DNA from: Thermococcus sp. MAR1
GTDB taxonomy: Archaea; Methanobacteriota_B; Thermococci; Thermococcales; Thermococcaceae
Assembly: GCF_012027305.1 (NCBI RefSeq)
Contig: NZ_SNUF01000002.1
Span: 310,001-374,000 of the forward strand
Length of the DNA: 64,000 bases
Direction of reading: 5' to 3'
The translations under genes and the position numbers were made by a program. Position 1 is the stretch's first letter. The number at the start of each line of letters is the position of its first letter. Below the pieces are notes generated by a model, which had not been told where the DNA came from, ran no database searches, and saw only the letters and a list, made by a program, of their open reading frames with translations. Of this stretch, positions 34,352 through 50,191 are shown one piece after another.

Positions 34352-35275
34352 ATGTGGGAGAGGTTCATCGAGGAGAAGGTTGAGGAGATTAGGGAAACAG
34401 TTGGAGATAGCAAGGCGATAATAGCGCTCTCCGGCGGCGTTGACAGCTCGACGGCTGCAATACTCGCTCACAAGGCGATAGGCAATAGACTCCACGCGGT
34501 CTTTGTCAATACCGGCTTCATGAGGAAGAACGAGCCGGAATTCGTTGTCAAAACATTCCGCGACGAGTTCGGTCTCAACCTGCACTACGTCGATGCCAGC
34601 GAGCGCTTTTTCAATGCTCTCAAGGGTGTCACCGACCCCGAGGAGAAGAGGAAGATAATTGGTCGTGTTTTTATCGAGGTGTTTGAAGAAATCGCGAAGG
34701 AAATCAACGCGGACTTCCTCATTCAGGGCACAATCGCTCCGGACTGGATCGAGAGTAAGGGCAAAATCAAGAGCCACCACAACGTTGGCGGTTTGCCGGA
34801 GAGGCTCAACCTCAAGCTCATCGAGCCCCTCAGAGACCTCTACAAGGACGAGGTGAGGGAATTAGCGAGGGAACTCGGCCTGCCGGAGAAGATATACAAC
34901 AGAATGCCCTTCCCTGGGCCGGGATTGGCTGTCAGGGTTCTCGGTGAGGTCACGCCGGAGAAGGTGGCCATCGTAAGGGAGGCGAATGCCATAGTGGAGG
35001 AGGAGATCGAGAAGGCCGGTCTAAAGCCCTGGCAGGCCTTTGCTGTTCTGCTGGGAGTGAAGACCGTCGGCGTTCAGGGCGACATAAGGGCCTACAAGGA
35101 AACTATCGCCGTCCGCGTCGTTGAGAGCCTCGATGGAATGACCGCCAATGCCATGAACGTCCCCTTCGAGGTTCTTCAGAGGATAGCGTTCCGTATTACA
35201 AGCGAGATTCCCGTGGTCGGAAGGGTGCTCTACGACATCACCAACAAACCGCCGGCGACGATAGAGTTTGAGTGA
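34352..35275 (+). CDS. guaAB: GMP synthase subunit B (PP-loop ATPase)
   Basis: A 307-residue ATP pyrophosphatase that adenylates XMP and aminates it to GMP. The PP motif SGGVDSS is at 27-33; [26 protein letters not shown] and a C-terminal [12 protein letters not shown] dimer segment follow. In Thermococcales the glutaminase is a separate subunit; here its gene (35968-36537) is split off by a toxin-antitoxin pair. The ATG at 34352 follows GGTGGT. Confidence 0.97.
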
Positions 35276-35318
35276 AAGCTTATTTACCTTCGTTTCCAAT
35301 TTTTACATGGTGGAGAGT

Positions 35319-35528
35319 ATGGGAGAAATTATCGAAGTGATTTACGAAAACGGCGTGCTGAGACCCCTCAAGCCCCTCAAGCTGAAGGAGGGCCAGAGGC
35401 TCAGGGTGAGGGTTTACAGCGATGACTTCCTCAAACTGGCAAGGGAGATGAGGCGGGAAGTAACACCTGAGAAGTTCAGGGAGGATCCAACAGACTACCT
35501 GCTCCGCCTGCGGGAGGAGGAAACATGA
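35319..35528 (+). CDS. VapB-type antitoxin (AF2212/DUF104-like)
   Basis: A protein of about 69 residues with the family signature [18 protein letters not shown] followed by [10 protein letters not shown], then a charged helix. This family is the usual partner of archaeal PIN toxins. The start may be ATG 35319 (after GGTGGAG) or ATG 35307. The end overlaps the toxin ATG (ATGA at 35525-35528). It begins about 40 bases after the GMP synthase B gene. Confidence 0.85.
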
Positions 35529-35971
35529 GGGTTGTCATTGACACTTCAGTTGTTTTCCACTTGTTCTCGGATTTTTACCCCAAGCGAACTGAAATTGCCG
35601 AAAGGGTTATCGAGAACGCCCAGCTTGGGGTGATTGAACTCTATGCTCCAAGGCTCGGCGAGGTTGAGTTCACGGCCGTTCTGTCCAGGTATTTTGACCG
35701 AAAATCCGTTGAGAGGGCTTTAGGCCACTACTCGGAAATTGTTATCTGGGTCCCCGAGGAGCTGATAATGGAGGATTTAAAGGAGGTAGCCTTTCAGACG
35801 CATCACAAGGCGTCTGACATATACTTCATCGCAACTGCCCGTTACCTTGATGCGGTTTTGATAACCAACGATAGAAAGATGTCTGACCTGGCCAAGTCCC
35901 TTGGTCTGAGGGCCTTCTATCTGGTTGAGGAGGATGGTGAGTTCTTCAAACTCCTGGAGGTGGATGAATGA
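35525..35971 (+). CDS. PIN-domain toxin (VapC family)
   Basis: A 148-residue PIN-domain ribonuclease. The acidic metal-binding set is visible: VVIDTSVV (Asp5), the glutamate in [20 protein letters not shown], and [11 protein letters not shown]. VapC proteins cut tRNA or rRNA and are held by the antitoxin encoded just before. The ATG overlaps the antitoxin stop and its own stop overlaps the next gene (ATGA at 35968-35971), so it is fully built into the GMP synthetase operon. Confidence 0.92.
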
Positions 35972-36586: not shown

Positions 36587-36690
36587 TTATCTTCTTCCGG
36601 CAGGAGGTGTTAAAGCGTTTTGGTTACTAAGAAACATTGCAAAATCAAAAACTTTTTAAAGTTTTAGTTCTTACTCTAGTGGGTGATACT

Positions 36691-36966
36691 TTGGGGCATA
36701 CCGTATATTACAGCATCAGAATCGAGCAGTGGGAGGAGTTCAAAAGCTTCATTGAACGAATCTGCCGCGGGATTGGCTACGACTTCGTTGATAACGGGGA
36801 CTCCATACTTATAATACCAGAATGTCACAACGTCGAGCCTCTTGAAATAAGAATGGAGGGAGCTGGGTTTGTAAAAACCAACCTGATTGAACCCTGTCAT
36901 TCGGTATACCTGCTCGTGCTTCACTCGGCTTCTTCCTTTGGTTCGGTTGGAGTCTGGGAGGACTGA
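36691..36966 (+). CDS. Small hypothetical protein
   Basis: A 91-residue protein starting at TTG 36691 (MGHTVYYSIRIEQWEEFKSF), five bases after GGTGA; a GTG at 36679 and TTG at 36637 are also in frame. A TATA-like ACTTTTTAAAG lies at about 36650. It has a strand-helix-strand pattern with YDFVDNGDSILIIPEC and ends with a hydrophobic LLVLHSASSF stretch. The end overlaps the convergent DUF2101-like gene by 46 bases. Family unknown to me. Confidence 0.65.
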   Translation: MGHTVYYSIRIEQWEEFKSFIERICRGIGYDFVDNGDSILIIPECHNVEPLEIRMEGAGFVKTNLIEPCHSVYLLVLHSASSFGSVGVWED

Positions 36967-37667
36967 TCCGTGAGGTAGACCTCTATTATCCTTACCGGAA
37001 CCGCTCCCTTGAGCTTTCTGTCTTCCACCACGAGCTTCACTACCCTGCCTACTTCGAGGTCTTCAACGGCATCGACCCAGTAGTGGCCGGGCTTGACGTT
37101 TGCCGCTATGTCGTCGTGGACAAAGACCCTGACGACGTCGCCTTTAATCTCCTCAACAACGCCGTAAGTGTAGTCCCTCCCGTATTTCTCCTTGAAGTAC
37201 CAGCGGAACGCCATCACCGCCGCGAAGACCACTAGGAGATAACTATAGTAGTAGTAAACCGAGGTAGCGACCCTTCTCACGAGGGTGTAGCCAAGGAACG
37301 CGGCCAGGGTTACAGCCGAAATTCCATAGTAGAAAGCCTGATATGGCTTGGGGTCTATGAAGAACTCCCGGTTCCTGACCAGGGTATAGCGGAGATAGAG
37401 GAAGTAAACCACCGCCACTCCCACAAGCCACAGTGGACTGGGCTTGAGGAAAAGCAGGATTAGATTAATAATAAGATAGTTGAGAAAGGCCAGCTGGAGC
37501 CTGAGACTGAGGAGCTCGTGTGGGCTCAGGGGTTTTTTAACGACCTTTTTCAGGCACCTGGATGTTGGGGGGTGCTCGGAGGGGAAGGGCATCAGAAACC
37601 CCCAGATCCTACCTCCAATTGAGTATACCGCGTCCCCCAGCCTGTAAAGGAAGCTTTCAACGGACAT
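36921..37667 (-). CDS. DUF2101-like membrane protein, last gene of the pilin-like cluster
   Basis: A 248-residue protein: soluble N terminus, four hydrophobic segments between about 58 and 160 (for example LAFLNYLIINLILLFL and LLVVFAAVMAFRWYF), then a soluble beta-rich domain of about 70 residues with GVVEEIKGDVVRVFVHDDI, and an acidic tail. The latter looks like a small OB-like barrel. I believe it belongs to DUF2101. The ATG at 37667 lies after GGGGTGA and four bases from the end of the large surface protein gene, so it is in the same transcript. Confidence 0.7.
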   Translation of the reverse strand: MSVESFLYRLGDAVYSIGGRIWGFLMPFPSEHPPTSRCLKKVVKKPLSPHELLSLRLQLAFLNYLIINLILLFLKPSPLWLVGVAVVYFLYLRYTLVRNREFFIDPKPYQAFYYGISAVTLAAFLGYTLVRRVATSVYYYYSYLLVVFAAVMAFRWYFKEKYGRDYTYGVVEEIKGDVVRVFVHDDIAANVKPGHYWVDAVEDLEVGRVVKLVVEDRKLKGAVPVRIIEVYLTDQSSQTPTEPKEEAE

Positions 37668-37671
37668 TATT

Positions 37672-40600
37672 TCACCCCTGGAGTAGGTCGCTTGCTCCCT
37701 GTACGCCAAACACCTTTCTGGCTATCTCGGGTGTTAAATAAAAGTTTTCGTCTAACAGGAGCGATGAGACACCGCCGTTGGTCGAGATTCCGAAGACCTT
37801 CTTGGAGTTTGGATCATTGGATGAATAGTCGCGGTAGTTAAGGTATATGTAGTCGGCAGCGGGTTGTTTCCTAACGAGGAAGTTAAGGTTGGGTGGGAGG
37901 TCCTTTGGCAGGATGAAACTTATCAGCCCAATTGGATACCTCGCGGTTCCGTAGACTGTCCTCTGCATCTTCGCGGCTATCCTTTCGTAGTAGTTCTGGT
38001 TGGTGGTGTCCCCACCTTCCAGTCTCTCAAAGAACGACGGTGCCCCCTCTACTCCGAAGTACTTCTGGGCCTGGATGCAGTCAATGAAGGGCTGGATATC
38101 GTACACCCTCGCGGTTGAGTAACCTCCCACGGACGGAATGCTCTCGCTTGGGGTGGTTCTAATCTGGCTTGTAGTGTACGTTTCATAGGGGTATGAAGCC
38201 GCCACTATCCAGTCAAAGTACGCGTCGTTCCCCTGGTCGTTGTCAATGGTCGCAAAGAGCCTGAATCCGGTAGCCTGCCCGACCTGCACGCTCGCGGTGG
38301 ACTCCCTGGATCCTGCGAGGTTTGGAGTGTGTGTGAACGTTAGGTCGAGGGTTCTGGAGCCTTTCTCTACAATTACCTCGTATCTCTGGGGGGTGTTCAT
38401 ATACCAAGCCCCGTTGTAGTTGTCTAGATTGGTGCTCCACTCCTGGAGGATGGCGAGCTTGTCGCCTCCGTGGTCCCGATGGCCGGGGTTGTCGTCTATG
38501 AACTGAACTCTCTTTTGTAGGCTTACAAAAATACTATTCTGCTCCATCTCTGAAATGTCGAGATATTTCCGGACGTAAATAAAATCGTAGCGTGAAGGCC
38601 CTTTGTAAATCTGCCCGAGACCTATCGGCTCGTCTGCTTCGGAATTGTACCAAGTGTATTCACTCACAGGACTGCCCCACATTCCTTTAAACTGTGATGT
38701 GGTCTGATATGTATAGAAGTCTCCAGAGTCGATATACAGCTCCAGCCTGCTCCATTCGCCCTTTTTGTATTTTCCACCCTTTTCTTGGTAACTGGAGAGA
38801 CTACCGTCTGCTATGTTGAATGTGCGGAGATGTCCAGTCTTGCCAACTACGTGTTCAATCCAGGCATCCCCATAGGAATCAATATACCACATGAAAAACG
38901 GCTGATTCTTTAGGTAAGCTCTCATTCCGATAACATACGAGCTTGGGAATGTTTTCTTGGTCCATATCCAGACGTCGGCATTCTTATCATTGTTCCCTTG
39001 CAATTTGAGGACGCCATTTGATACGGAGTAGCTTCCCCCATTGACTGTCTTATAGTTCCACTCATTTGTGTCTAGGGAGTTCCCGTTGAAGTCATCGAAG
39101 AACTCAAAGACCTTGTTTCCATCCCCTCTGACCGGTTGTTCATTCGATGGACAGATTAGGAAGACGTTGTAGTATGTGTCCGAGAGCCATCCAAACATGA
39201 AGTCCATCCATTCCTGAATAAACGGAGGCATTATGCCGTAGATGAACTTCAGGAACCTCTCCAGTAGGGACGTATCATCCGTCAGGTTTGCCTTGACCCA
39301 TATCAGTGCCCCCTCGGAGTTCCAGTACTCTATCCAGAACGGCACTTGGTTTCCGTAAACGTCCGTTATTGTGATCGCTGCTTTGTTGGTTGTCCAGTGG
39401 GCACCGAGGTCACTTATGTTGGTCGCTGAGAGATATATTGGAATCTGAACGTTCTCGGTATCCATTCTAGAGAACACTGTGGTGCTTATCGATTTCACCA
39501 CGAGAATGCATTTGGAGGAGTTGAATGCAACCTCTACGCCACCGTCGAAGTCTTTGGTGCTTTCTTCCCCCTTAATCGAATACCTGACGAAGAATGAACT
39601 CCATGGTATATTTGATATAATCTCGCTCTTCTCCTCGCCGGCGGTCAGGGTCACGCTCTGGTTATGGACGGGGAAAATCGCTATGTTTCCGCTCCATTCC
39701 ATGTTCTGGTCGCTGGTGGAGTAGTAGACGGTGTACTCCCTCGTGTCAGTGGTGTTGAGCCAGATGAGTATCTTGTCGTCTCCCCAGTACTCTATCCAGT
39801 AGGGAGCTATGTTGCAGGAGGTGTCTGAGCGCTTGTATATCCTTATCGAGGCTGCGGTGCCGTCATGGACGGCGCTTCCGAACGGCACAGAGGTGGGAGT
39901 AAGTTCTAGGAGCACGAGTGAATTCAGGGGAGTTGTACTAGGGAGCGTCATGTTGGCGCGATACTCCAGTTTCTTCTCGCACCAGTGGGTGGAAGTGCCA
40001 CCGTCCTCACTGATTGAATCAAACGTCATGACCCCTATGTCCCCCGGATTGAAGACGCTCACTGGCGAAACCTTTCTTCCACCCAGTGTCGTGTTGAAGA
40101 TATAGGGGGCGTTCGGAGTCTCGGACGGCTGCTGCCGCGTTATGTACCCGAGGACGTTCTCCCCTGCGATGTATTTGTCGCTGTAGAATATCGTTCCTCC
40201 CCGGGGCACGTTGTAGAGCTGGCCTGAGAAGGTCTTTATGTTGGACTGCCCGTACCCGTCGAGGCGGATGTATGGCGGGGTGATTGAGGGGTAGGCGAAC
40301 TTGCACGCGGAGATTATCCTGGAGGCCCTTCCGCTTGTAAGGTATGGGAATAGAGGGTCCTCTATGCCTTCTATTGGGATAACTACGTAAACAGAGCCGT
40401 TTTGGGGGATGGAGGAGTTATAGACGACTAGTCCGGAGGAGTCCTCTATGACGATGGTGGGTATGCTCGCGTTGATTACTATGTGGAAGGAGTCGAGCGG
40501 TGCCACGGTGAGCTTCATGTTCCGAACTATTTCATCTGGGCTTGGCTTCATCGTGTAGCCCTGCCTCTCGAGCTCCCACTTCATGTTCATCAGCCAGTCT

Positions 40601-40965
40601 TTGATGGTGTTGTTCTTCATAAAGAACTCCTCGCGGGACGTCCACTTGGAGCTTGTTCCTCCTATGTAAGGGTAATGACCATAGGTTATTAGCTGCTCTA
40701 AAGCCGCACTGGCGTTGTCCAGTGGCCTCTCACTAGTGACGTAATCAACGCTGAGCGCGATGGCCCTCTTCGTGGAGAGAGCAAGGATGTTCTTGAAGTC
40801 TTCCTCCAGATAAGAGGTTAGCCTGAACGTTCTCTCTATCTGGACGTTCTCGCTCTGGGATGTGATTATCATTGATGAGGCATCCTCGTACGTGGCTATG
40901 AGCAATAACAGCGGGATAAGAAGTAGTAACACGGCTGAGTTCATGAGGAATCCTCGCCTCCTCAT
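37672..40965 (-). CDS. Large secreted surface protein with DUF2341-like repeats and a lectin-like domain
   Basis: A 1097-residue protein with an N-terminal membrane segment (SAVLLLLIPLLLLIA after MRRRGFLMN), the rest extracytoplasmic. Two related blocks, APYWIEYWGDDKILIWLN (about residue 390) and VPFWIEYWNSEGALIWVK (about 560), match DUF2341. A later domain starting FFDDFNGNSLDTNEWNY resembles concanavalin/laminin-G-like sugar-binding folds. Many N-x-S/T sites suggest glycosylation. It is the largest product of the cluster and overlaps the preceding gene by ATGA. I infer a filament-tip or cell-surface adhesin. Confidence 0.8.
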   Translation of the reverse strand: MRRRGFLMNSAVLLLLIPLLLLIATYEDASSMIITSQSENVQIERTFRLTSYLEEDFKNILALSTKRAIALSVDYVTSERPLDNASAALEQLITYGHYPYIGGTSSKWTSREEFFMKNNTIKDWLMNMKWELERQGYTMKPSPDEIVRNMKLTVAPLDSFHIVINASIPTIVIEDSSGLVVYNSSIPQNGSVYVVIPIEGIEDPLFPYLTSGRASRIISACKFAYPSITPPYIRLDGYGQSNIKTFSGQLYNVPRGGTIFYSDKYIAGENVLGYITRQQPSETPNAPYIFNTTLGGRKVSPVSVFNPGDIGVMTFDSISEDGGTSTHWCEKKLEYRANMTLPSTTPLNSLVLLELTPTSVPFGSAVHDGTAASIRIYKRSDTSCNIAPYWIEYWGDDKILIWLNTTDTREYTVYYSTSDQNMEWSGNIAIFPVHNQSVTLTAGEEKSEIISNIPWSSFFVRYSIKGEESTKDFDGGVEVAFNSSKCILVVKSISTTVFSRMDTENVQIPIYLSATNISDLGAHWTTNKAAITITDVYGNQVPFWIEYWNSEGALIWVKANLTDDTSLLERFLKFIYGIMPPFIQEWMDFMFGWLSDTYYNVFLICPSNEQPVRGDGNKVFEFFDDFNGNSLDTNEWNYKTVNGGSYSVSNGVLKLQGNNDKNADVWIWTKKTFPSSYVIGMRAYLKNQPFFMWYIDSYGDAWIEHVVGKTGHLRTFNIADGSLSSYQEKGGKYKKGEWSRLELYIDSGDFYTYQTTSQFKGMWGSPVSEYTWYNSEADEPIGLGQIYKGPSRYDFIYVRKYLDISEMEQNSIFVSLQKRVQFIDDNPGHRDHGGDKLAILQEWSTNLDNYNGAWYMNTPQRYEVIVEKGSRTLDLTFTHTPNLAGSRESTASVQVGQATGFRLFATIDNDQGNDAYFDWIVAASYPYETYTTSQIRTTPSESIPSVGGYSTARVYDIQPFIDCIQAQKYFGVEGAPSFFERLEGGDTTNQNYYERIAAKMQRTVYGTARYPIGLISFILPKDLPPNLNFLVRKQPAADYIYLNYRDYSSNDPNSKKVFGISTNGGVSSLLLDENFYLTPEIARKVFGVQGASDLLQG

Positions 40966-43133
40966 GGGTTCTCCCTCCATACCCTCAGAGTAACCACTAT
41001 GGGAGATGTTGAACTTGGAATCCCACCGAGAGACGCGAAGTCTATCCTGGTGTCTGACAGCTCGACCAGTATTGGGTTGTTCCAGCCGTCCCCTCCAAGC
41101 TTGTGGAACAGCCTAATAACCGCATCGTCTACGGCGTAGTCCTCTGGTTTCAGCTCCGCGGCGGTTAAGTTCATGTAATCCCCATTATAAACTGCGGCCT
41201 TGTCGCCTATTATTACGCTCGACTCTCTCACAGTGCTTCCCACCTTGTACCTGTAGGTGAGGTTGTAGGCCTTGACCTCCGGGTATCCCTGGAGAAGCTG
41301 TGGTTTGATGTCCTCGTACGGGGCGTAGGCGTCGAGGAGGAATAGAACCTCGCCGAGGGCATGGGATGGGTCCACGCCATAGCAGTTTCCAAAGGTGAGG
41401 TCGAACTCGTTGAGACCCGGGTGTATTGCATCCTTGACAACTCTGCCTTGGTAGTCCCGTGTGGTTACGGTGTACCCCCATCTGGCGAAGACATCGATGA
41501 AATCGTTGTAATTGGGAGCGTCGTAGAGGGTTATCCACGTCTCCTCATCCTTGCTGAGTATCCGAACCCTCTGGGTGCATACTGTTCCTGCATCGTGAAG
41601 CCACGGGAGCTGATACCTGACGTAAATGGGGGTTCCTTTTTCCGGAATGTTCCACTGCCAGGTGACCTCGCGGTAGAAGTCTCCGCTTTTGCGGTTTCTG
41701 GCGGTATAATCATCGAGGGGCTTCCTGAAGTCTATTGAGTAGAGGCTGGAGTAAACAAATGGGGTGTAATCAACGTATACATAGGATTTTGTTCCATCGA
41801 GGTGAAGTTCGCTGTGAGAGCTTGCCCTTGTTATGTCAAAAATTATTGTAAAGAAAGATCCGGAGATGTCCTTATACGTGTACCCGGTTGAGTGTATAGC
41901 ACTCGCTATCGTGGCGTTGTCTGCGGTGAACATGTTGCCTGATCTTGAGAGAGTTATCTGGTTTGAGAGGTGGTTAAATACCCTGAATCTGGCCGTCACT
42001 GTTTCTATGTTCTCACCCTCGATGTGAATACGGAGGTCGCTGATGTTACCTGGTGCGAAGACATATTTCTCAATGTACAACGAGTCGTTGGCGTAGATGT
42101 CGGCGAAGTGGAACTTGTGGGGGTACGTGAAGGTGGACGCCTGGGACGTCCTGTATGTGATTATGATGTGCTGTGCTCCGTCCTCACCGGAGTTTCTATC
42201 ATGATCTACCAGCACAGTAAAAGTAGTGTTTGTTCTCTGATCTACCCTGTTCTGTACCTCCTCTACTAGGTTGCATGTGTTGTAGTTGTTGTCATTGGTG
42301 TCCTCAAGCTCCTCGTTTAAGTGGACGTTATTCCATCTCCCGTTATCCCAGTTTCCACAGGTAATGTATTTGTCATTGATCCTGAGGGAATAGTCCGAGT
42401 ATGTCCAGGCCCCTTCCAGGAGCCACTTAACCCCAGTAATCCTCGCATCGGAGGGGAACTGCGACGTGGGAACGATGTACTTGATTTTTATAGGTCCGGT
42501 GTTGTAGTGGGCCGTTGCTATGTAGTCTCCCATGTAGGTGTAAGTCGTTTCCTTTGCCTTCAGCTTGCTCAGGTACGCCCTGGCCATGTACCCCCTGGGA
42601 GTTCTGTTGTACTCGTAACCGCTGAGTATAAGCGTCGCCGGCATGACGTCCGGGGTGAGGTTGTAGTTACTCCCTCTCTTAATGATGTAAGGTTTCTCGT
42701 AGTTGTACACGTTGCTACTGTCGTTTGTGGATATTATGAGCTCATAGTCATAGCCCGTTAGTGCCGTGCTCAGGATGAAGGACAGAATCTCTCCTGCTTT
42801 CTTCCTGAGCTCAAGATCCGGATACTTAGCGTCTAGCGACCAGTAAGTGGCTGTTATCTCGAGGGGGGACATGCGGGGATTGACGAGAGTTGTGTTGAGA
42901 ACTCCCGAGGATATCCACTCGGAGAGCTTTTCCTGAGGGACAATGTCACTGAGGGGGACGGTCTTTAGCATCGTCAGCGTGTCTTCTGCTAAGTATTTGT
43001 CGCTCGAGCGCATGTAAGTGGAGTACACATTCCTCGTCTGGGCTTCTATCCCGATTATGCCCGTTATTATTACCAGTGCCAGAAACACGGAGAGTATCGC
43101 ATCCAGGGTAAAAATGAAGGCCCGCCTCTTCAT
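40962..43133 (-). CDS. Surface protein with pilin-like N terminus (723 residues)
   Basis: It begins MKRRAFIFTLDAILSVFLAL: a short basic leader and a hydrophobic helix containing the FTLDAIL variant of the class III pilin segment. About 690 extracellular residues follow, rich in strands, aromatic residues and N-x-T sites. A run of asparagines (EDTNDNNYNTCN) near residue 285 and a DRNSGEDGAQHIIITYRT block resemble a carbohydrate-recognition layout, but I recognise no family. Both ends overlap neighbouring genes by ATGA. Confidence 0.75.
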   Translation of the reverse strand: MKRRAFIFTLDAILSVFLALVIITGIIGIEAQTRNVYSTYMRSSDKYLAEDTLTMLKTVPLSDIVPQEKLSEWISSGVLNTTLVNPRMSPLEITATYWSLDAKYPDLELRKKAGEILSFILSTALTGYDYELIISTNDSSNVYNYEKPYIIKRGSNYNLTPDVMPATLILSGYEYNRTPRGYMARAYLSKLKAKETTYTYMGDYIATAHYNTGPIKIKYIVPTSQFPSDARITGVKWLLEGAWTYSDYSLRINDKYITCGNWDNGRWNNVHLNEELEDTNDNNYNTCNLVEEVQNRVDQRTNTTFTVLVDHDRNSGEDGAQHIIITYRTSQASTFTYPHKFHFADIYANDSLYIEKYVFAPGNISDLRIHIEGENIETVTARFRVFNHLSNQITLSRSGNMFTADNATIASAIHSTGYTYKDISGSFFTIIFDITRASSHSELHLDGTKSYVYVDYTPFVYSSLYSIDFRKPLDDYTARNRKSGDFYREVTWQWNIPEKGTPIYVRYQLPWLHDAGTVCTQRVRILSKDEETWITLYDAPNYNDFIDVFARWGYTVTTRDYQGRVVKDAIHPGLNEFDLTFGNCYGVDPSHALGEVLFLLDAYAPYEDIKPQLLQGYPEVKAYNLTYRYKVGSTVRESSVIIGDKAAVYNGDYMNLTAAELKPEDYAVDDAVIRLFHKLGGDGWNNPILVELSDTRIDFASLGGIPSSTSPIVVTLRVWRENP

Positions 43134-44524
43134 GAGTCATCCCACACCCACAGCTTTAATATTGTCCTCTCGAACTTGGGCTCCATCATGGTGTCCAGAT
43201 GTCCCATGTCCTTTATCTCTACAGTACCGTCGAACGTGTTGCCATATATCCACACCGTGATGACCTTCGAGCCGACACTCGTGTCAAATGCTTGAAATAT
43301 CGAGCTCCATGGAACATCCACGCTTGTCTTGTTCCCTTGGTAGAACTTAGGCGGAGATGAATCGTCCGAGGTCGCTACTATCGCCTGTATAACAGAGTCA
43401 CTGCTCTGTTTCTCTATGAGAACGCCCCTGTACTCTTCCCCGTCCCTTGCTACCAGGATTATTCTGCCCGTGTACTGGGGTGCAACGGTGACCCTGAAAT
43501 AGGAGTACTCGGGCACGTTCATTGTCAGTCTACCGACTATCCACTCGGTAGTGGAGGAGAAATCGACGTTGATGTTCTCCTCGTACCTAAATTTCTCAAC
43601 GGTGACCTTTCTCTCTATGTACTCAATCCAAGGTGACCTATCGCGGGATCTTTGTATGACGGCGTCATCATCCACCTTGCTCCCGTTTATGACGGCTATC
43701 CTGTATGAAGGTGCTGTTAGCTCCTCGGGCTCTGTCACATCGACATTTACTGTTATCGTACTTTTCTGGTATCCCTCCACTACAATCCTGACCTGCCCCT
43801 GTCCTGTTATGTGGAGCCCACTATCGCTCCACTTCACTTGGAAGTTTGATCCAGTGGATATTACCTGTATCTCTACATAAGCGGGCGCGGAGATTGGATA
43901 GTCTTCGCCATTTTTCCTGTCGTGGACGGTTATGTCCTCAAGGGCGTAGAAGGCCAGAACGTCCCCGGGGGAGAGGCTGTACGGCTGGTTACGTTTGGGA
44001 AGATTATCCCCGTTCAGAGTCACGTTGGCGGCATCGAAGGGGTTGTTGCCTGTACTGCCCTGTCCGATTTGAATGTTCCTGTCTCTACCGTCGCTGAGAT
44101 CGATAAACACCCTTTTGGGAAAATACCCAGTCAGGCTGATGGTGGTGTTGGGGAGGTAAAGGCGGAGCTCGAAGTCCTTGTGGTTGCTCATATTGATCAA
44201 ACTGTTGATTACGGCAGTGCTATCCTCTAGCTTCATCAAGGCTGATATTTTATCATAACTGACAGCATAGGGATACGTATTACTTCTGAGGCCTAGGCTC
44301 TTGAGATTCGAAATATCCTTGTTCCAGTCAGTTGGATTCCCGGGGTTCTTGGTCAAGACGTCGAGCATGTTGCTAGCTATGTTCACCCTCTCGTACCAAT
44401 CGACCATTGCGGATATCTCGTTCTGAAGGACCGTTGAGGTGCTGGTTATCGTGCCGAGCATCACGATTACCATGACTAGGGCCAACATCGCGTCTAAGGA
44501 GAATATCTGTCCCCTGTACCTCAT
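43130..44524 (-). CDS. Surface protein with pilin-like N terminus (464 residues)
   Basis: It begins MRYRGQIFSLDAMLALVMVI, a variant of the class III pilin motif (Q, then S-x-D in place of S-x-E) followed by a hydrophobic helix. The remaining ~430 residues are extracellular and beta-rich, with several N-x-S/T sites. Coupled to both neighbours by ATGA overlaps. Likely a minor pilin-like subunit that sits between the small pilin-like proteins and the very large ones. Confidence 0.75.
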   Translation of the reverse strand: MRYRGQIFSLDAMLALVMVIVMLGTITSTSTVLQNEISAMVDWYERVNIASNMLDVLTKNPGNPTDWNKDISNLKSLGLRSNTYPYAVSYDKISALMKLEDSTAVINSLINMSNHKDFELRLYLPNTTISLTGYFPKRVFIDLSDGRDRNIQIGQGSTGNNPFDAANVTLNGDNLPKRNQPYSLSPGDVLAFYALEDITVHDRKNGEDYPISAPAYVEIQVISTGSNFQVKWSDSGLHITGQGQVRIVVEGYQKSTITVNVDVTEPEELTAPSYRIAVINGSKVDDDAVIQRSRDRSPWIEYIERKVTVEKFRYEENINVDFSSTTEWIVGRLTMNVPEYSYFRVTVAPQYTGRIILVARDGEEYRGVLIEKQSSDSVIQAIVATSDDSSPPKFYQGNKTSVDVPWSSIFQAFDTSVGSKVITVWIYGNTFDGTVEIKDMGHLDTMMEPKFERTILKLWVWDDS

Positions 44525-45003
44525 GTTCTCACCACACTCACGTTTATAGAGATCTTTTTGCCGTCGTAGTAGAGGATCTCCCCATCCATCTTGGCGTCGG
44601 TGTGGTTGAGAAGATCCTTGACTAGAAAGTCTTGTATTGCCTTGGCTATGTTGTCATTATTAAGATCAATTTTTCCCGAGTACTTGACCTGTATGCTGAT
44701 GATTATCGTGTCGCCGCTCTTGCTTGAGCTTATCGAGGAGACTATGAAGTTCCTTGAGGTGTAGTTGGACTTCTCTATCACAGGGTTAAGGATGTTATAC
44801 GGTTGACTACCCACAGTGACTCCTGAGTTGAGGTACAGACATGCGCTCGAAGCAGAGGATCTCACGTAAGCGAGAATTGTGGTGTTTCTGTTCTCCTCGA
44901 GGTAGGGGGGAACAAGTATGAGTATCCCAGTTAGTATTATTGCGGTTATGAAGAGAGCTTCAATGGCAACCTGCCCCTTACGGCGAGTAGCTAAGTTCGA
45001 CAT
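44521..45003 (-). CDS. Class III pilin-like protein (160 residues)
   Basis: Begins MSNLATRRKGQVAIEALFI, giving Q-x-A-x-E after a basic stretch and then a helix ILTGILILVPPYLEE, close to the Q-x-S-x-E motif of class III signal peptides. A beta-rich domain of about 120 residues follows. The ATG at 45003 lies 26 bases inside the previous gene and has GGAGGAAAGG upstream; the end overlaps the next gene by ATGA. Confidence 0.8.
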   Translation of the reverse strand: MSNLATRRKGQVAIEALFITAIILTGILILVPPYLEENRNTTILAYVRSSASSACLYLNSGVTVGSQPYNILNPVIEKSNYTSRNFIVSSISSSKSGDTIIISIQVKYSGKIDLNNDNIAKAIQDFLVKDLLNHTDAKMDGEILYYDGKKISINVSVVRT

Positions 45004-45427
45004 AAACCTTTCCTCCCCCCACTCGGGCCTTTATCCATATCTCACTTTTGTCAGGTGTTATTTGAATCGATTCGTCTTGGTATAAGGGAATTGGGCTCTG
45101 TTGCACAGTAGTGTATTGCCTTCCGCCAATATTCCCGGTTACGATTATTGTGTTGCTTTTCGCGTTTAGCTTTATGGTTATACTGTCCCCATTCCTTAAA
45201 GGGATAGGCGACTCCTTCTTGGCGCTAAACCCGTTGCCAGAGGCATAGACCTTGGCTACTGTGTCCCTTATGTCTACGGAGAATATTTTCAAACGAGTGG
45301 TGATGTCAAAGGCCTCTGCGTGGCTTCGTTGCATGCTGGCGATCTGAACCATATTTAGAACTGTGATTGCAATGAGAGCAATTGCGAAGAGAAAGTCAAG
45401 GCTTATCTGTCCCCGTTTCATCTTCAT
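44978..45427 (-). CDS. Class III pilin-like protein (149 residues)
   Basis: MKMKRGQISLDFLFAIALIA shows the class III signal motif Q-x-S-x-D directly after the basic residues, with the hydrophobic helix that forms pilus cores. A small beta domain follows, ending VYVELSYSP. In Euryarchaeota such proteins are cut before or near the Q by the EppA-type peptidase and assembled into pili. ATGA overlap with the gene before it. Confidence 0.85.
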   Translation of the reverse strand: MKMKRGQISLDFLFAIALIAITVLNMVQIASMQRSHAEAFDITTRLKIFSVDIRDTVAKVYASGNGFSAKKESPIPLRNGDSITIKLNAKSNTIIVTGNIGGRQYTTVQQSPIPLYQDESIQITPDKSEIWIKARVGGGKVYVELSYSP

Positions 45428-46056
45428 CCACCGGGGTTTATGTTTATGTGGAGCTCACCAGCAGTCGAGTCAAATATCCATGAGTTTGGATTGTCGGGGT
45501 TCCACTCAACAACTATCTCCAGTGTTGCTGGGAGGGTCGCGGGGTCGAGATCCAGCCCGTAGACCGTGGATGACCCAAAGGTGACGCTTCCGGATGGGGA
45601 CCATACGGATGAGTTGGTGTATAGAACCGCTTGGTACATCGATCTGCTCCAGAAGACGTTCTTGTTCCCGCCGCTGAGAACGGCGGTAACGTTGGTTCCT
45701 GTAACGGTAACGTACGTGCCGTTGCCTTCGGTACTGTAGTTCCCGTAGGTGATGAAAACCTTGGGGCTGTTCACACCCAGCCCTTTAAGAAGCATATCGG
45801 GGTCTCTCAGGTATGTGATCCTTACGTAGGTGGTTGACTTGGCTCCAGGACCCTGGGCGTAAACCTGTGATATCGTGTTGGAGATGGCGTTGGCGAGGTT
45901 CTTCTCTTCGAGGCTTATCTGGATTCGAAGGGTCTCGGTTGAGGTCGAGCCTTCCCTGAAAGTGATGTTGTTTACGGAGTAAAGCAGGAGTATGAGCATC
46001 ATTCCAAAGATTAACATGAACTCAAGCGAAACCTGACCACGCTTTTTTATCCGCAT
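45424..46056 (-). CDS. Class III pilin-like protein (210 residues)
   Basis: MRIKKRGQVSLEFMLIFGMM contains a perfect Q-x-S-x-E class III motif and a hydrophobic helix; the mature protein has about 160 beta-rich extracellular residues with N-glycosylation-type sites (NYSTEGNGT, TNVTAV). It is the first pilin-like gene of the run and may also have its own promoter (TATA-like element 46092-46099). A candidate major subunit, though abundance cannot be judged from sequence. Confidence 0.88.
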   Translation of the reverse strand: MRIKKRGQVSLEFMLIFGMMLILLLYSVNNITFREGSTSTETLRIQISLEEKNLANAISNTISQVYAQGPGAKSTTYVRITYLRDPDMLLKGLGVNSPKVFITYGNYSTEGNGTYVTVTGTNVTAVLSGGNKNVFWSRSMYQAVLYTNSSVWSPSGSVTFGSSTVYGLDLDPATLPATLEIVVEWNPDNPNSWIFDSTAGELHININPGG

Positions 46057-46091
46057 ATTTTCTCCCCTCAGTAGGGTATATCTCCGAACAT

Positions 46092-46099
46092 CTATTTAA
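46092..46099 (-). promoter_or_regulatory. Possible internal promoter before the pilin-like genes
   Basis: On the minus strand TTAAATAG lies 36 bases upstream of the ATG at 46056, overlapping the stop codon of the preceding gene. A GGGGAG ribosome site follows at about 46063-46068. The spacing fits a TATA box with a short leader and would allow pilin-like genes to be expressed without the upstream tubulin-like gene. Confidence 0.4.
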
Positions 46100-46725
46100 T
46101 CGTTACTCTCCGATTTTCCGGCGTTTACGATGGCGAAAAGGCCAGTTCCGACCCTTTTGGTCTCAACGCCAAAGTAATCTCCGCTGAATATTTTGAACTT
46201 GTACCTCTCTGGCTGAAGGGAGTGCTTCTCTACCAGCTCGGTCAGTTCGTCGATGAAGAACTGTGTCAGTTCGTAGTAGATTAAATCAAGCTTTTCCCGG
46301 GTGGAATCTCTTATCAGGAGAACCGCTGGTAGTATTGCAAGTCCGATGATGAAGTAAGGCTGACCGGTGAAGAAGGACGCGAGTGCAGTCATGCCTATCG
46401 CCCCACCTATGGCGGCATACAGGCCTTTTTCTCGCTTCTTTGCCTCTTTAATCTCCTTAACCTTCTGCTCCCAGATGTCGAGTAAAGCCGGGTTGTAGAA
46501 ATCAAAGGCTGTGTGGCGCTTTCCCTTCGCTATCCTCTCCCGGATGAGGTCGTCCCAGTCGTCCTTGTAGTAGATGACCTCCCCGTGGAGCTTTGCCCTC
46601 TCGGCATCGAGGGAAGAGATTATTCTGATGATGTCCTCGGCGCTCTCGTGGGCTATGTGGGAGTAAACTTCTTTCTCGTCGAGGTCTAGCGCAACCTCAA
46701 CGGAGTCCTTTATTGGCTCAGTCAT
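46096..46725 (-). CDS. Membrane-associated protein of unknown function
   Basis: A 209-residue protein with a charged helical N-terminal half (rich in E and K, for example EQKVKEIKEAKKREKG), two close hydrophobic segments at about 102-137 (LYAAIGGAIGMTALASFF and YFIIGLAILPAVLLI), and a C-terminal cytosolic part. It overlaps the tubulin-like gene by eight bases and is followed by the pilin-like genes. It could anchor the GTPase to the membrane or to the pilin machinery; that is inference. No family recognised. Confidence 0.75.
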   Translation of the reverse strand: MTEPIKDSVEVALDLDEKEVYSHIAHESAEDIIRIISSLDAERAKLHGEVIYYKDDWDDLIRERIAKGKRHTAFDFYNPALLDIWEQKVKEIKEAKKREKGLYAAIGGAIGMTALASFFTGQPYFIIGLAILPAVLLIRDSTREKLDLIYYELTQFFIDELTELVEKHSLQPERYKFKIFSGDYFGVETKRVGTGLFAIVNAGKSESND

Positions 46726-47887
46726 CTCTCTCCCTCCTGAGCCTCTTGCTTATCCCTTCGATGTCTGGATACTCTCCGTCGGGGATTCCCTTAAGCTCGC
46801 TCCCGCCCTTGGAGTATACATCGTCGAAATCGGGCAGGCCGCTTAGGAGCTCTTTCTTTTTGTTCTCCGCTTCCTCCTTTGCTTCCATGAACGACTGGGC
46901 GTATCTCTTTGCGGCGATGATTATGTCCTCGATGCTCTTGCTCTCGTAGATGCCGCTGAGGAGCGTAACGACTTCTACTTCCCTCTCGCGGGGATCCGGA
47001 TAGAAGCCGCGGAATATCTGCTTGCCCCTTATCTTGTTGGTGAGGTAATCCAGAGCCTCAAAGATATCCGAGGCCTTCAGTATCTCCGGCGGTCCATGGA
47101 TCGCGACCAGGCCGTACAGCGCCGATTCGATGTTTGCCTCGAGGTACAGCCCCTCGCTCTCGAACGACTTGATGATGAGCCTTGAGAGGCTCTTTACCTT
47201 GCCGGCATCTGCCTTTGCATAGCCGACCGTTGCAAAGCTGCCGAAGGCCTTGAGAACGAACTTCAAATCGCTGGCATCGAGAGTCTGTTCACCGGGAACG
47301 TCAACCAGGGCCAAGAGCGACGCTATCCTCTCGACTATCGTGTAGTTAATCCTCTCGTAGGCCCTGCTTATGTCGTCGCCACCTTCCTTGAGCTTATTGT
47401 TGTCTATGGCTATTATTGAGTCGGCTATCTTGGAGAGCTTGTCTATGGTTATTGCGGCGTTTATAGTCGGCCTTATTCCCTCCTCCTTGAGGGGGAGTGC
47501 ACCGATGGCCACCACTAGGGAGTCCGGGTATTCCTCTTTGAGGGCTTTAGCCAAAACGGGTGTTCCTCCGGCGCCCGTTCCGCCGCCGAAGCCGAAGGTC
47601 AGGAAGAAGATGTCGATGTCTTCATAGCCGATTATTGAGCCTATCTTGCGCATGACGAGGGGCAAGTCGCGTTTCATAGCCTCTCTGCCGAGTATCGGGT
47701 TTGCATTGACTCCCTTGCCACCGGTCAGGCTCTCGCCTATCAGTATCCTCCGCTCCTGGGGGACGTGTTTGAGGTACTCCAGGTCGCCCCGAGATGTGTT
47801 TACGGCCAGAGTATCAAAATCCACCAGAGCGAAGAGGTCGGCTATCTTCGTTCCGCACTGGCCGACCCCTATGATTAAAGCCCTCAC
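46718..47887 (-). CDS. Tubulin/FtsZ-superfamily GTPase (CetZ-like)
   Basis: A 389-residue protein with the tubulin signature GGGTGAG at 101-107 and an N terminus ALIIGVGQCGTKIAD, whose GQCG is closer to tubulin and CetZ than to classic FtsZ. The GTP-binding domain is followed by the usual middle helix and second domain, then a charged tail of about 50 residues. CetZ proteins in haloarchaea control cell shape and motility rather than division. It follows the secreted toroid gene by seven bases and overlaps the membrane protein gene, so it belongs to the surface cluster. Confidence 0.88.
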   Translation of the reverse strand: MRALIIGVGQCGTKIADLFALVDFDTLAVNTSRGDLEYLKHVPQERRILIGESLTGGKGVNANPILGREAMKRDLPLVMRKIGSIIGYEDIDIFFLTFGFGGGTGAGGTPVLAKALKEEYPDSLVVAIGALPLKEEGIRPTINAAITIDKLSKIADSIIAIDNNKLKEGGDDISRAYERINYTIVERIASLLALVDVPGEQTLDASDLKFVLKAFGSFATVGYAKADAGKVKSLSRLIIKSFESEGLYLEANIESALYGLVAIHGPPEILKASDIFEALDYLTNKIRGKQIFRGFYPDPREREVEVVTLLSGIYESKSIEDIIIAAKRYAQSFMEAKEEAENKKKELLSGLPDFDDVYSKGGSELKGIPDGEYPDIEGISKRLRRERDD

Positions 47888-47894
47888 CTCTTAA

Positions 47895-50117
47895 TCACCC
47901 CACGACTATTACCCTCACCTTGCCGTTTTCGTTAAGGAGAATCATCGCGTTTCCCCTGATGTACCTTATGAAGCCGGTGGTGAAGACTTCCTTGGCAATT
48001 TCGGCGTTCTCCTGCTCGTAGAATACGAACAGGACGACTCCCTTGGGGGTCTTGCCAGGGATAAGAATGACCGCCTTGGCAATGGGCACCGTAACGTTTC
48101 CGACCGTGACGGTTTCGTTTGTGAGATGGAACTTCAGGTAGGGGTTGTATGGTCTCACGAAGTACTCGCCGTAGTGAGCCATGACAATGTAGCTGCCCTC
48201 GCCTATCGTGGTCGTGTTGAGGGCTATGAAGCCGCCGCTGAAGAGGTCGTTGAGCATGTCTATCGTCTCGTTTACCGTGGCGGCGTCCATATGGGGTGCG
48301 ATTATTCCGAACACATCGCTGTCGAGAGCGCTCCTTACGTCATAAAGGCTCACGGGGGGAACGTACTGGAAGCGGGAGAGGTAGTTTATGGTGCTGGCGA
48401 GCTCTATAGTCTTGTTGTCTATCGCCCCGGAGTCCCTGGCGTTCATAACGAATTCAAGTGTCTCGTTGGTGTAGTTGTATCCGTGATCCATCAGAAGGTC
48501 CGTTGCCCTGACGGTGAGTTCAACCGTCGGTGTTCCAGGGAATTCCTTGTTCTTCTCCCAGACGTAGTAGGTCTTCCAGTATGGCCAGCCTCCATTAATC
48601 CTCTGCTCAATGAGCCAGTCCATGTGGGGCTGCAGCTCTTCCTGAGAGGCTATTTCACTCAGGGCCTCAAGGACGGTTATGGTCGTTAGCACGTCTGGCT
48701 TGAGCATGTAGGAGTAGTACTTCGTCGTTACGTGGGTTCCCCATCCGCCGTTGCTTATGCTCAGAAGCCATTCCTTGGCCCTCTGAACCAGTGAGTCGTT
48801 TGCTGGAACTCCCAGTTCTCTGAGGGCTTTTATTGCAAGGGCGGTTTCGTAGGGCTGAGGACCGAGGACGGTGTTGCCCCAGAGGCCGTAGTCGAGCTGA
48901 ACACTGCGTATCAGCTCCTCCGCCTGGGCCTTTTCCTCGGCGGTCAGGTTGTTGTACATGAGGAGCGTCTTCAGTGCGTAGTAGTAGCCGACGGACATCC
49001 TGCGTTCCTGTCTCATCCAGACCGCGTCCCTCTCGAAGGCCCCTCTCGTCCACGCAAGGGCCTTTTCAATGCTCTCCTTCTCTGGATAACAGGCCTGGAT
49101 GCTCATAAGTGCGTAGTAGGTGGCCTTCTCGTCGGAGGGCTCGTTGCGTCCGAGACCCCAGCCCCCATCGGGGTTCTGGAGGTTCTTGAGTTCCTGGCAT
49201 GGCATCTCATAGGGGTTCTTTACCCCTTTCACCGGTGGGAGCTCGAATGACGTTGAGAAAGCCATGAGAGCATAGGAGGTGGTTGCCACGAGCTCCGTGG
49301 ATGAGAAGAGGTCCGGGGTGTTCATCCAGTAAACGAGATTGTTCGTGCTCTTGCTGTACGATTCCAGCTTGATGAGTATCCTCGCCGTGTCAAAGTCTAT
49401 GGGTGTGTGAAGTACGAGGGCGTACGTCAGCATGGCGCGCTCCTTCATTTTGAGGTTCCCGTCATTGAGAAGGATTTCCTTGACGCTTTCAATGGTCTCG
49501 TTGGAGACTGGATAACCTGTGCTGTGGTACGCTATGAGTTTTAGGGCGAGGGCCTCGTACTCGGGTATCTCACAGGTCGTGGTGTTCTCCACGTATTTTA
49601 TCGCTTCCCTGACGACTTTGCTGTTGTAGGTGTATCCGCTCTCTCCAAGGGCCCATATCGTCACGAGGGTTGGATAGCACGAGGTCGGGGTTCCCGGTAC
49701 GTAGCCCCATCCCCCCTCGTTCCCCGAGGAGAGGAGGTATGAAAGGCCACTGTTGATGGCGTTCCTTACACCCTCGACCCGCAGTGCCCCGACGATCGGA
49801 TCCGCCCTTTCCAGGGCGATAACGGCGTAGGCCGTGTCGAGGACGTTGCTGGTCTCACCGGGGTACAGGCCCCAGCCCCCGTCGGGGTTCTGGTACTTGA
49901 GAAGCGTCGTCACGAGGTTGTCCAGCTCTGGAGCAATGTCCCACTCCAGATCGTTGCTCGCCTCTGAGAGTGCCATTATAGCGAGGCTTATTTCCCTCGT
50001 CTGCTGGCTTGACTTGGCCGCCTCCTTGAGAAACCTTGCAGAGCCGTCTATCGTTCCGGCGCTAACGGCTGGAATCAGCATGAGAACAATCATTACTAGA
50101 GCCAGAACCTTCTTCAT
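47895..50117 (-). CDS. Secreted alpha/alpha-toroid protein with terpene-cyclase-type repeats
   Basis: A 740-residue protein with a signal peptide (KKVLALVMIVLMLIPAVSA). Repeats with the QW-type motif are visible: QNPDGGWGL at two places, GNEGGWGYV, SNGGWGTH and NGGWPYW, each after a pair of helices, as in the squalene cyclase / prenyltransferase fold. No DXDD or DXDDTA catalytic motif is evident, so a binding rather than enzymatic role is likelier, as in complement-like domains. N-glycosylation-type sites are frequent. It is the first gene of the cluster. Confidence 0.82.
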   Translation of the reverse strand: MKKVLALVMIVLMLIPAVSAGTIDGSARFLKEAAKSSQQTREISLAIMALSEASNDLEWDIAPELDNLVTTLLKYQNPDGGWGLYPGETSNVLDTAYAVIALERADPIVGALRVEGVRNAINSGLSYLLSSGNEGGWGYVPGTPTSCYPTLVTIWALGESGYTYNSKVVREAIKYVENTTTCEIPEYEALALKLIAYHSTGYPVSNETIESVKEILLNDGNLKMKERAMLTYALVLHTPIDFDTARILIKLESYSKSTNNLVYWMNTPDLFSSTELVATTSYALMAFSTSFELPPVKGVKNPYEMPCQELKNLQNPDGGWGLGRNEPSDEKATYYALMSIQACYPEKESIEKALAWTRGAFERDAVWMRQERRMSVGYYYALKTLLMYNNLTAEEKAQAEELIRSVQLDYGLWGNTVLGPQPYETALAIKALRELGVPANDSLVQRAKEWLLSISNGGWGTHVTTKYYSYMLKPDVLTTITVLEALSEIASQEELQPHMDWLIEQRINGGWPYWKTYYVWEKNKEFPGTPTVELTVRATDLLMDHGYNYTNETLEFVMNARDSGAIDNKTIELASTINYLSRFQYVPPVSLYDVRSALDSDVFGIIAPHMDAATVNETIDMLNDLFSGGFIALNTTTIGEGSYIVMAHYGEYFVRPYNPYLKFHLTNETVTVGNVTVPIAKAVILIPGKTPKGVVLFVFYEQENAEIAKEVFTTGFIRYIRGNAMILLNENGKVRVIVVG

Positions 50118-50191
50118 CACCTTACACCCCTAAGCTCATTCTAAGCGGCCAGAATAAATAAACTTTTTCCATAATAGGAAGAAGAGGGGAC

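Follow-up and report, generated by a model that had tools for sequence, protein, structure and literature searches.

Why a gene for a tubulin-like GTPase should lie beside genes for class III pilin-like proteins is the question raised by a stretch of Thermococcales DNA, G000:C2:310001-374000 (64,000 nucleotides, referred to here as the window), which derives from a 2.02-Mb draft genome that is 98.7% complete. The original prediction, made from the window itself, described ten minus-strand genes as a candidate surface-filament system, of a make-up for which its author was not aware of a description. The ten open reading frames (ORFs) were found at the predicted positions and in the predicted order, with tiny gaps or overlaps. 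The claim of novelty fails, as this make-up was already described in 2016 by Makarova, Koonin & Albers (PMC4858521) and in 2023 by Brown & Duggin (PMC9856176), and the locus is the Thermococcales type IV pilus locus with CetZ. We give a probability of a little over one half to the reading that minor pilins and tip proteins of a clade 1 type IV pilus are encoded here, next to a CetZ unit with a promoter of its own, in which CetZ and a 209-residue membrane protein, m209, would place or stabilise the pilus base. The promoter split of the locus and the mosaicism of its tip genes are additions worth following; no report of the mosaicism at this locus was found in open-licence full texts.

Gene content and conservation of the locus

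All ten genes are on the minus strand. The first encodes a toroid protein of 741 residues (47895-50120) and starts with GTG at 50120; the gene had been recognised in the original prediction, with the next ATG as its start. It is followed by the gene for the CetZ-family tubulin-like GTPase (389 residues, 46718-47887), which has Tubulin and CetZ_C domains, and by the adjoining m209 gene (46096-46725). Three class III pilin-like proteins are encoded next, namely p210 (45424-46056; RG/QVSLEF), which has a Class_IIIsignal match, p149 (44978-45427; RG/QISLDF), which has the conserved class III motif, and p160 (44521-45003; KG/QVAIEA), for which the Class_IIIsignal match lies below the cut-off. The larger products are p464 (43130-44524), a minor pilin with a conserved N-terminal helix and a hypervariable beta-rich ectodomain, p723 (40962-43133), a hypervariable minor pilin-like protein in which F replaces Q+1, and p1102 (37672-40980), a DUF2341 protein (PF10102, E = 2.8e-11) with a pilin-like N-terminal helix. 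The last gene (36921-37709) encodes a DUF2101 polytopic membrane protein; its annotated TTG start gives a 38-bp overlap, and the real start, as judged by the sequence, is probably an ATG 42 bases downstream. The domain matches and the conserved motif positions bear out the predicted juxtaposition of a CetZ-like tubulin homologue and class III pilin-like genes.

CetZ orthologues, 81-100% identical, were found in 89 of 94 Thermococcales genomes, and the five without one (G052, G056, G061, G063 and G088) are all fragmented metagenome-assembled genomes (MAGs), 73-91% complete. The m209 gene is missing from the same five and elsewhere lies directly after cetZ. The order toroid-cetZ-m209-p210-p149-p160-p464-p723-DUF2341-DUF2101 is kept in nearly all of 72 regions, some of the gene absences being contig ends, and co-occurrence of the CetZ-like gene with the pilin-like genes, which had been proposed as a check, was thus seen throughout the order. 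Given this shared order and the conserved positions of the class III motifs, the gene cluster is not a product of chance. A contig scan for the GTPase returned only Thermococcales MAG loci and one bacterial FtsZ-like match, so that no named reference strains entered the comparison, and 21 genomes from other orders of the same class gave FtsZ-level scores only.

A 109-residue ORF of an unknown family (36637-36966, plus strand), present in 67 of 68 regions, is convergent with the DUF2101 gene and overlaps its end. The block is also adjoined by a pair of antitoxin-like and PIN-domain genes (35268-35971, plus strand), found in just 26 of the 68 regions.

Pilin-like proteins and a candidate tip

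N-terminal positions were compared across ~70 orthologues of each pilin-like protein. Q+1 and the acidic residue are both 100% conserved in p210, p149 and p160. In p464, Q and the acidic residue, D, each reach 97%, with one extra residue between them; the Q of p723 is replaced by F, its aspartate being 100% conserved, and nearly all p1102 orthologues have no acidic residue and share a conserved N. The six locus proteins with pilin-type N-terminal helices form a gradient, with a full class III motif in p210, p149, p160 and p464, a partial one in p723 and the least complete one in p1102, and several minor pilins with class III signal peptides occur together, as in clade 1 pilus loci. The tip pseudopilin of type II secretion lacks the acidic residue, and by analogy the absence of this residue suggests that p1102 is a candidate tip adhesin. 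DUF2341 proteins are placed at the tip in the clade 1 model (PMC4858521). The predicted structure of p464 (predicted local distance difference test score, pLDDT, 87) has a pilin helix and a beta-rich ectodomain, and a fold search of it against the PDB gave only weak beta-sandwich matches (laminin G, neurexin, lectins and viral shells) with template modelling (TM) scores <0.2, which were not taken as homology.

Signs of two promoter-led units

Elements resembling a transcription factor B recognition element and TATA box (BRE/TATA), scored at 9 or more of 10 consensus positions, sit 40-55 bases upstream of the toroid and p210 starts. The element of unit 1, AAAAAGTTTATTTA (50155-50168, minus strand), lies upstream of toroid in 61 of 69 genomes, and that of unit 2, AACGATTAAATA (46093-46104, minus strand), lies upstream of p210 in 70 of 71, all of these genomes being kin, so that the counts are not independent samples. 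Such an element was found upstream of each of the other eight genes in 0-3 genomes, and dinucleotide shuffles of the same upstream stretches gave one in ~12 of 70. Within the units, genes overlap or are a few bases apart; m209 and p210 are separated by a median of 41 bases, and by 39 bp in the window, with no obvious oligo-T stop. Runs of five thymidines (T5), at which transcription could end, are found between these two genes in 7 of 69 genomes and are missing from the other 62, and because such runs are rare, read-through from unit 1 into unit 2 is possible.

On these sequence signs there would be two conserved promoter units, one of toroid, cetZ and m209 and the other of the pilin-like genes and the DUF2101 gene. 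The order and overlaps of the single ten-gene run first proposed stand, whereas its unity does not, as CetZ falls outside the pilin unit. The unit 1 element is retained upstream of cetZ in both genomes from which the toroid gene is cleanly absent (G020 and G072; regions L105 and L110), where cetZ directly follows a TYW1-like gene. The toroid is therefore dispensable, and since its loss leaves promoter, cetZ and m209 intact in these two genomes, the core of unit 1 consists of cetZ and m209.

Mosaic variation of the pilin-tip genes

Across 68 regions, median identity to the window was 89% for the flanking GuaA-like product, 88% for the TYW1-like product and 87% for CetZ, followed by m209 (63%), DUF2101 (53%), p210 (50%), p149 (41%), toroid (40%), p1102 (37%), p723 (36%), p160 (35%) and p464 (34%). 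When genome pairs with CetZ proteins at least 95% identical were taken, identity was below 50% for p723 in 53% of pairs, for p464 in 39%, for p1102 in 34% and for the toroid in 29%, and for m209 and DUF2101 in none. When mapped onto a CetZ+m209+TYW1+GuaA tree, the 14 classes of p723 (60% linkage) required 32 changes, where 13 would be the minimum, and those of p464 required 38, where it would be 29; the other genes were near their minimum.

Classes of p723 cross genera, with identities of up to 76% while the neighbouring genes are at background, including in the single-contig genomes G029/G012. In two close complete pairs the drop falls within a protein: p1102 of G014/G034 is >90% identical at both ends and 18-61% in the middle, and p464 of G019/G033 is 93% identical in the pilin helix, beyond which identity falls to 15-38%. 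In the window, a segment of ~37.6-45.2 kb (37600-45200, no strand assigned) is mostly unalignable to the nearest relative, G031, while the core on either side is 90% identical DNA, and 39570-45447 is 85% identical DNA to G027, a genome more distant in CetZ (89% identity). This 7.6-kb cassette thus looks exchanged. Given the sharp within-protein drops, the cross-genus p723 classes and the cassette match to G027, recombination is the simplest reading of the mosaicism. The surface-exposed parts of p464, p723 and p1102 are swapped between species, and CetZ is conserved like the housekeeping genes. Such mosaic genes suggest strong diversifying pressure on the pilus, from viruses, partner recognition or surfaces.

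CetZ, m209 and the toroid protein

The window genome has three tubulin-superfamily genes, two of them FtsZ-like and the third the cetZ of this locus. The best solved relatives of the latter product are 4b46, 4b45 and 3zid (138, 118 and 116 bits), the last of which is a CetZ structure, and the best FtsZ scored 94 bits. The first two are Haloferax CetZ1 and CetZ2 (PMC9856176). As the CetZ structures outscore every FtsZ and a CetZ_C domain is present (PF21011, E = 1.2e-15), the name CetZ is correct. The protein has a GGGTGAGG loop and the T7-loop acidic pair D204/D207 within QTLDASDLKF; GGGTG, D204 and D207 are invariant across 27 orthologues, the GTP-binding and T7 catalytic motifs thus being kept. 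After the fold, the C-terminus carries a near-invariant LLxGLPDFDDxY peptide, comparable by analogy with the FtsZ tail that binds partners, and then a variable tail. Thermococcales CetZ proteins are reported as deep-branching, the deepest and mixed members of the family (PMC9856176).

The first ~93 residues of m209 are near-invariant and probably cytoplasmic; a hydrophobic stretch in a helical hairpin, which is variable, and a C-terminal tail follow. The predicted structure is helical (pLDDT 77). No Pfam relative of m209 was found, and a fold search of the model against the PDB gave no match at E<=0.001. Two marginal matches in the same class outside Thermococcales (E ~6e-4) had unrelated neighbours, with no tubulin or pilin nearby, and were treated as chance.

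The toroid protein had been predicted to be secreted, and a Sec-type N-terminal hydrophobic stretch was seen together with repeats of the squalene-cyclase/prenyltransferase/TED type. A squalene/hopene cyclase is ruled out, as the DxDD catalytic motif is missing from the protein and its NCBIfam cyclase scores of 27-40 bits are far below the cut-offs of 320-850. As judged by its sequence, it is a relative in toroid fold and not an enzyme.

Assembly genes elsewhere in the genome

A T2SSE search of the window genome identified three ATPases, namely that of the pilus (L133/L136), that of the archaellum (L134) and one with a PIN domain (L135). The pilus motor locus lies at ~G000:C2:124-130 kb, ~220 kb from the window locus. 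There, genes for a DUF515 protein and a 333-residue protein precede that of the ATPase (L136; 621 residues), and two T2SSF genes (357 and 303 residues) follow it. The pilus ATPase is present in 94 of 94 Thermococcales genomes; its assignment to clade 1 rests on the literature, which reports this clade for Thermococci, and on exclusion of the archaellum and PIN-domain ATPases. An EppA-like peptidase is encoded by a 409-residue frame at G000:C1:1388206-1389138 with an Arc_PepC match (PF06819, E = 2.2e-29) and a sub-threshold Peptidase_A24 match, and a PF06847 search of the window genome for EppA gave no match. As a gene for a 55-residue class III pilin is located ~270 bp before the peptidase gene, on another contig than the window, G000:C1:1387858-1389138 is a probable third pilus locus of the genome. 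Stand-alone class III frames of 55, 68 and 92 residues occur elsewhere in the genome.

Assembly had been expected to rely on genes outside the locus, and this is the case, with the ATPase and two platform proteins ~220 kb away and the peptidase on another contig. The suggestion that the GTPase powers the structure was not upheld, as the genome encodes a T2SSE ATPase for that, together with a pair of T2SSF platform proteins, and this ATPase, not CetZ, is likely to be the pilus motor.

Other features of the motor genes were seen. In many relatives the pilus ATPase frame spans 1040-1230 residues, with a long intein-like insertion just before Cys458 (NTGHDG/CMGTIHS), the KlbA intein lying at such a site; the ATPase of the window genome (G000:C2:126268-128130; L136:8269-10134) has no such insertion. 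G093:C29:1647-4646 holds two pilus-ATPase-like domains (59% and 57% identical to the pilus ATPase used as query) in one 1097-residue frame, a tandem or fused double ATPase. Genes for a MoxR-type AAA ATPase and a DUF58 protein follow the pilus motor genes after a few kb (L136:14503-16761).

What CetZ may do at the pilus

In the favoured reading, a prepilin peptidase would cut the pilins, a KlbA-type ATPase and a TadC-like platform would build the filament, and a complex of p149 to p1102 would prime or cap it. At the tip or base, p464, p723 and p1102 would contact surfaces, partner cells or viruses, and this would drive their diversification. CetZ would probably be anchored via the cytoplasmic, invariant region of m209, with the LLxGLPDFDDxY tail as a possible contact, and as a membrane-linked polymer would place or stabilise the pilus base and not power the pilus. 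A scaffold role of Thermococcales CetZ in type IV pili was proposed by Brown & Duggin (PMC9856176). That CetZ positions the pilus is a plausible inference, in which the link of CetZ and m209 to the pilus is drawn from their neighbourhood. A more specific proposal, that CetZ-m209 is a near-invariant intracellular scaffold dedicated to placing a pilus with a hypervariable exchanged tip (p464, p723 and p1102), is doubtful; if true, a tubulin-family scaffold would be tied to a polymorphic surface filament.

Several points weigh against a pilus role or favour the main rival. In this rival CetZ and m209, whether or not the toroid belongs to them, would act on their own in cell shape or the envelope, would be no more than neighbours of the pilin operon within a conserved block and would have no specific task for pili. 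The two conserved promoters put cetZ and the pilins in separate units. The cluster genes are present in 66-68 of 68 regions, and the housekeeping genes on the flanks are nearly as syntenic, the TYW1-like gene being found in 60 of 68 and the GuaA-like gene, which lies close to where the retrieved regions end, in 59; the conserved adjacency is real and only modestly stronger than that of these housekeeping genes, and synteny is thereby weakened as proof of function. Co-occurrence was rejected as such proof, since CetZ, m209 and the pilus ATPase are all universal in the order, which makes their co-occurrence uninformative, and no loss events couple CetZ and pilus. CetZ evolves at a housekeeping rate and shows no rank correlation with the divergence of p464 or p723. 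Contact between m209, which has no fold match, and CetZ is putative. In the literature, Haloferax CetZ1 acts on cell shape. Methanogen clade 1 pili have no described CetZ (PMC4858521), and the CetZ genes of Archaeoglobales, Methanomicrobiales and Methanosarcinales are not located beside pilus genes (PMC9856176). Yet in some Halobacteria cetZ adjoins pilus genes (PMC9856176), and the presence of the same GTPase family beside this unrelated pilus clade is an independent recurrence. In addition, cetZ, m209 and p210 stay together in the 8 of 68 regions from which the TYW1-like flank is missing, and the gap that usually has no T5 run leaves room for read-through. An independent module is thus a real possibility, though we hold it less probable than a CetZ unit that serves the pilus.

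The pilin-like cassette itself could form a short pseudopilus that serves DNA uptake or secretion, in place of an adhesive filament. The pseudopilins of the type II secretion system (T2SS) resemble the cassette in the graded loss of the class III motif and in a tip-like subunit that lacks the acidic residue. Transformation screens of Methanococcus maripaludis hit the homologous genes of its clade 1 pilus, one of them a DUF2341 gene, and these are needed for its natural transformation (PMC10133366). Clade 1 systems of the same organism make visible pili, however (PMC4858521), and the window genome has stand-alone small pilins of 55-92 residues, one of them beside the EppA-like peptidase. A DUF2341 tip adhesin and hypervariable ectodomains also fit an external contact role, and a pseudopilus is considered unlikely.

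Service to the archaellum, suggested by reported effects of Haloferax CetZ1 on motility and archaellum positioning, was rejected, because 11 of the 12 genomes (among 74 good ones) that lack the archaellum ATPase, six of them single-contig, keep CetZ and m209, all 12 keep the pilus ATPase, and the one exception for CetZ and m209 is G056, a fragmented MAG from which the whole cetZ region is missing.

For the favoured reading, that CetZ and m209 serve the pilus base, Thermococcales offer one CetZ per genome in a fixed place, a candidate membrane partner in m209 and a genetically tractable host group, and the published suggestion of CetZ as a scaffold of type IV pili becomes directly testable. With two promoters, the CetZ unit can be perturbed independently of the pilin unit, and in species without an archaellum the main confounder falls away.

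Comparison with known systems

Earlier gene lists for clade 1 pili of Thermococci reportedly go back to Szabo et al. 2007. In open-licence full texts, arCOG02202, the GTPase, was found only in PMC4858521 and PMC9856176. The first of these places it, with a squalene-cyclase-like toroid (arCOG03396), in the clade 1 loci of most Thermococci, and the clade 1 pilus that it models is made up of minor pilins with DUF2341 proteins at the tip and is served by a single ATPase and a pair of TadC proteins. The present locus agrees in its class III minor pilins, DUF2341 protein, GTPase and toroid, and the genome in its small stand-alone pilins elsewhere and its one ATPase with two TadC proteins, the arCOGs being matched at the level of the locus and not gene by gene. 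Two promoter units, the invariant m209 and the mosaic tip cassette are absent from the available text of that account, and the window genome differs from it in having the ATPase and the peptidase at separate loci.

According to Brown & Duggin (PMC9856176), who named the GTPase CetZ, all analysed Thermococcales cetZ regions are pili-associated and conserved in order, so that the co-occurrence check proposed for the window had in essence already been made. The GTPase, the neighbouring pilin arCOGs and the scaffold suggestion are the same as here, whereas the present comparison covers 72 regions, against 15, adds flank and archaellum-loss controls and places m209 directly downstream of cetZ. A CetZ gene also adjoins a type IV pilus regulon in Haloferacales/Halobacteriales, where CetZ2 lies beside pilB2/C2; there the pilus is of another clade, and ATPase and platform genes are inside the regulon.

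The T2SS tip complex (GspH-I-J-K) similarly consists of small pilins and then a larger subunit without the acidic residue. The ectodomains of the pilus locus are much larger and lectin/DUF2341-like, so that the likeness would be one of analogy.

A similar mode of variation is known from VARTIG (Makarova et al. 2021, PMC8416519), in which secreted Thermococcales proteins are likewise diversified by cross-species recombination. VARTIG has a large Ig-domain protein of another gene family, arCOG07710, and unique downstream genes, and CetZ/FtsZ is absent from the part of its text searched; none of the ten proteins of the pilus locus gave an Ig-family Pfam match. The gene content of VARTIG varies, whereas the pilus locus keeps a fixed order with varying alleles, and it would be a second hypervariable surface system in Thermococcales beside VARTIG.

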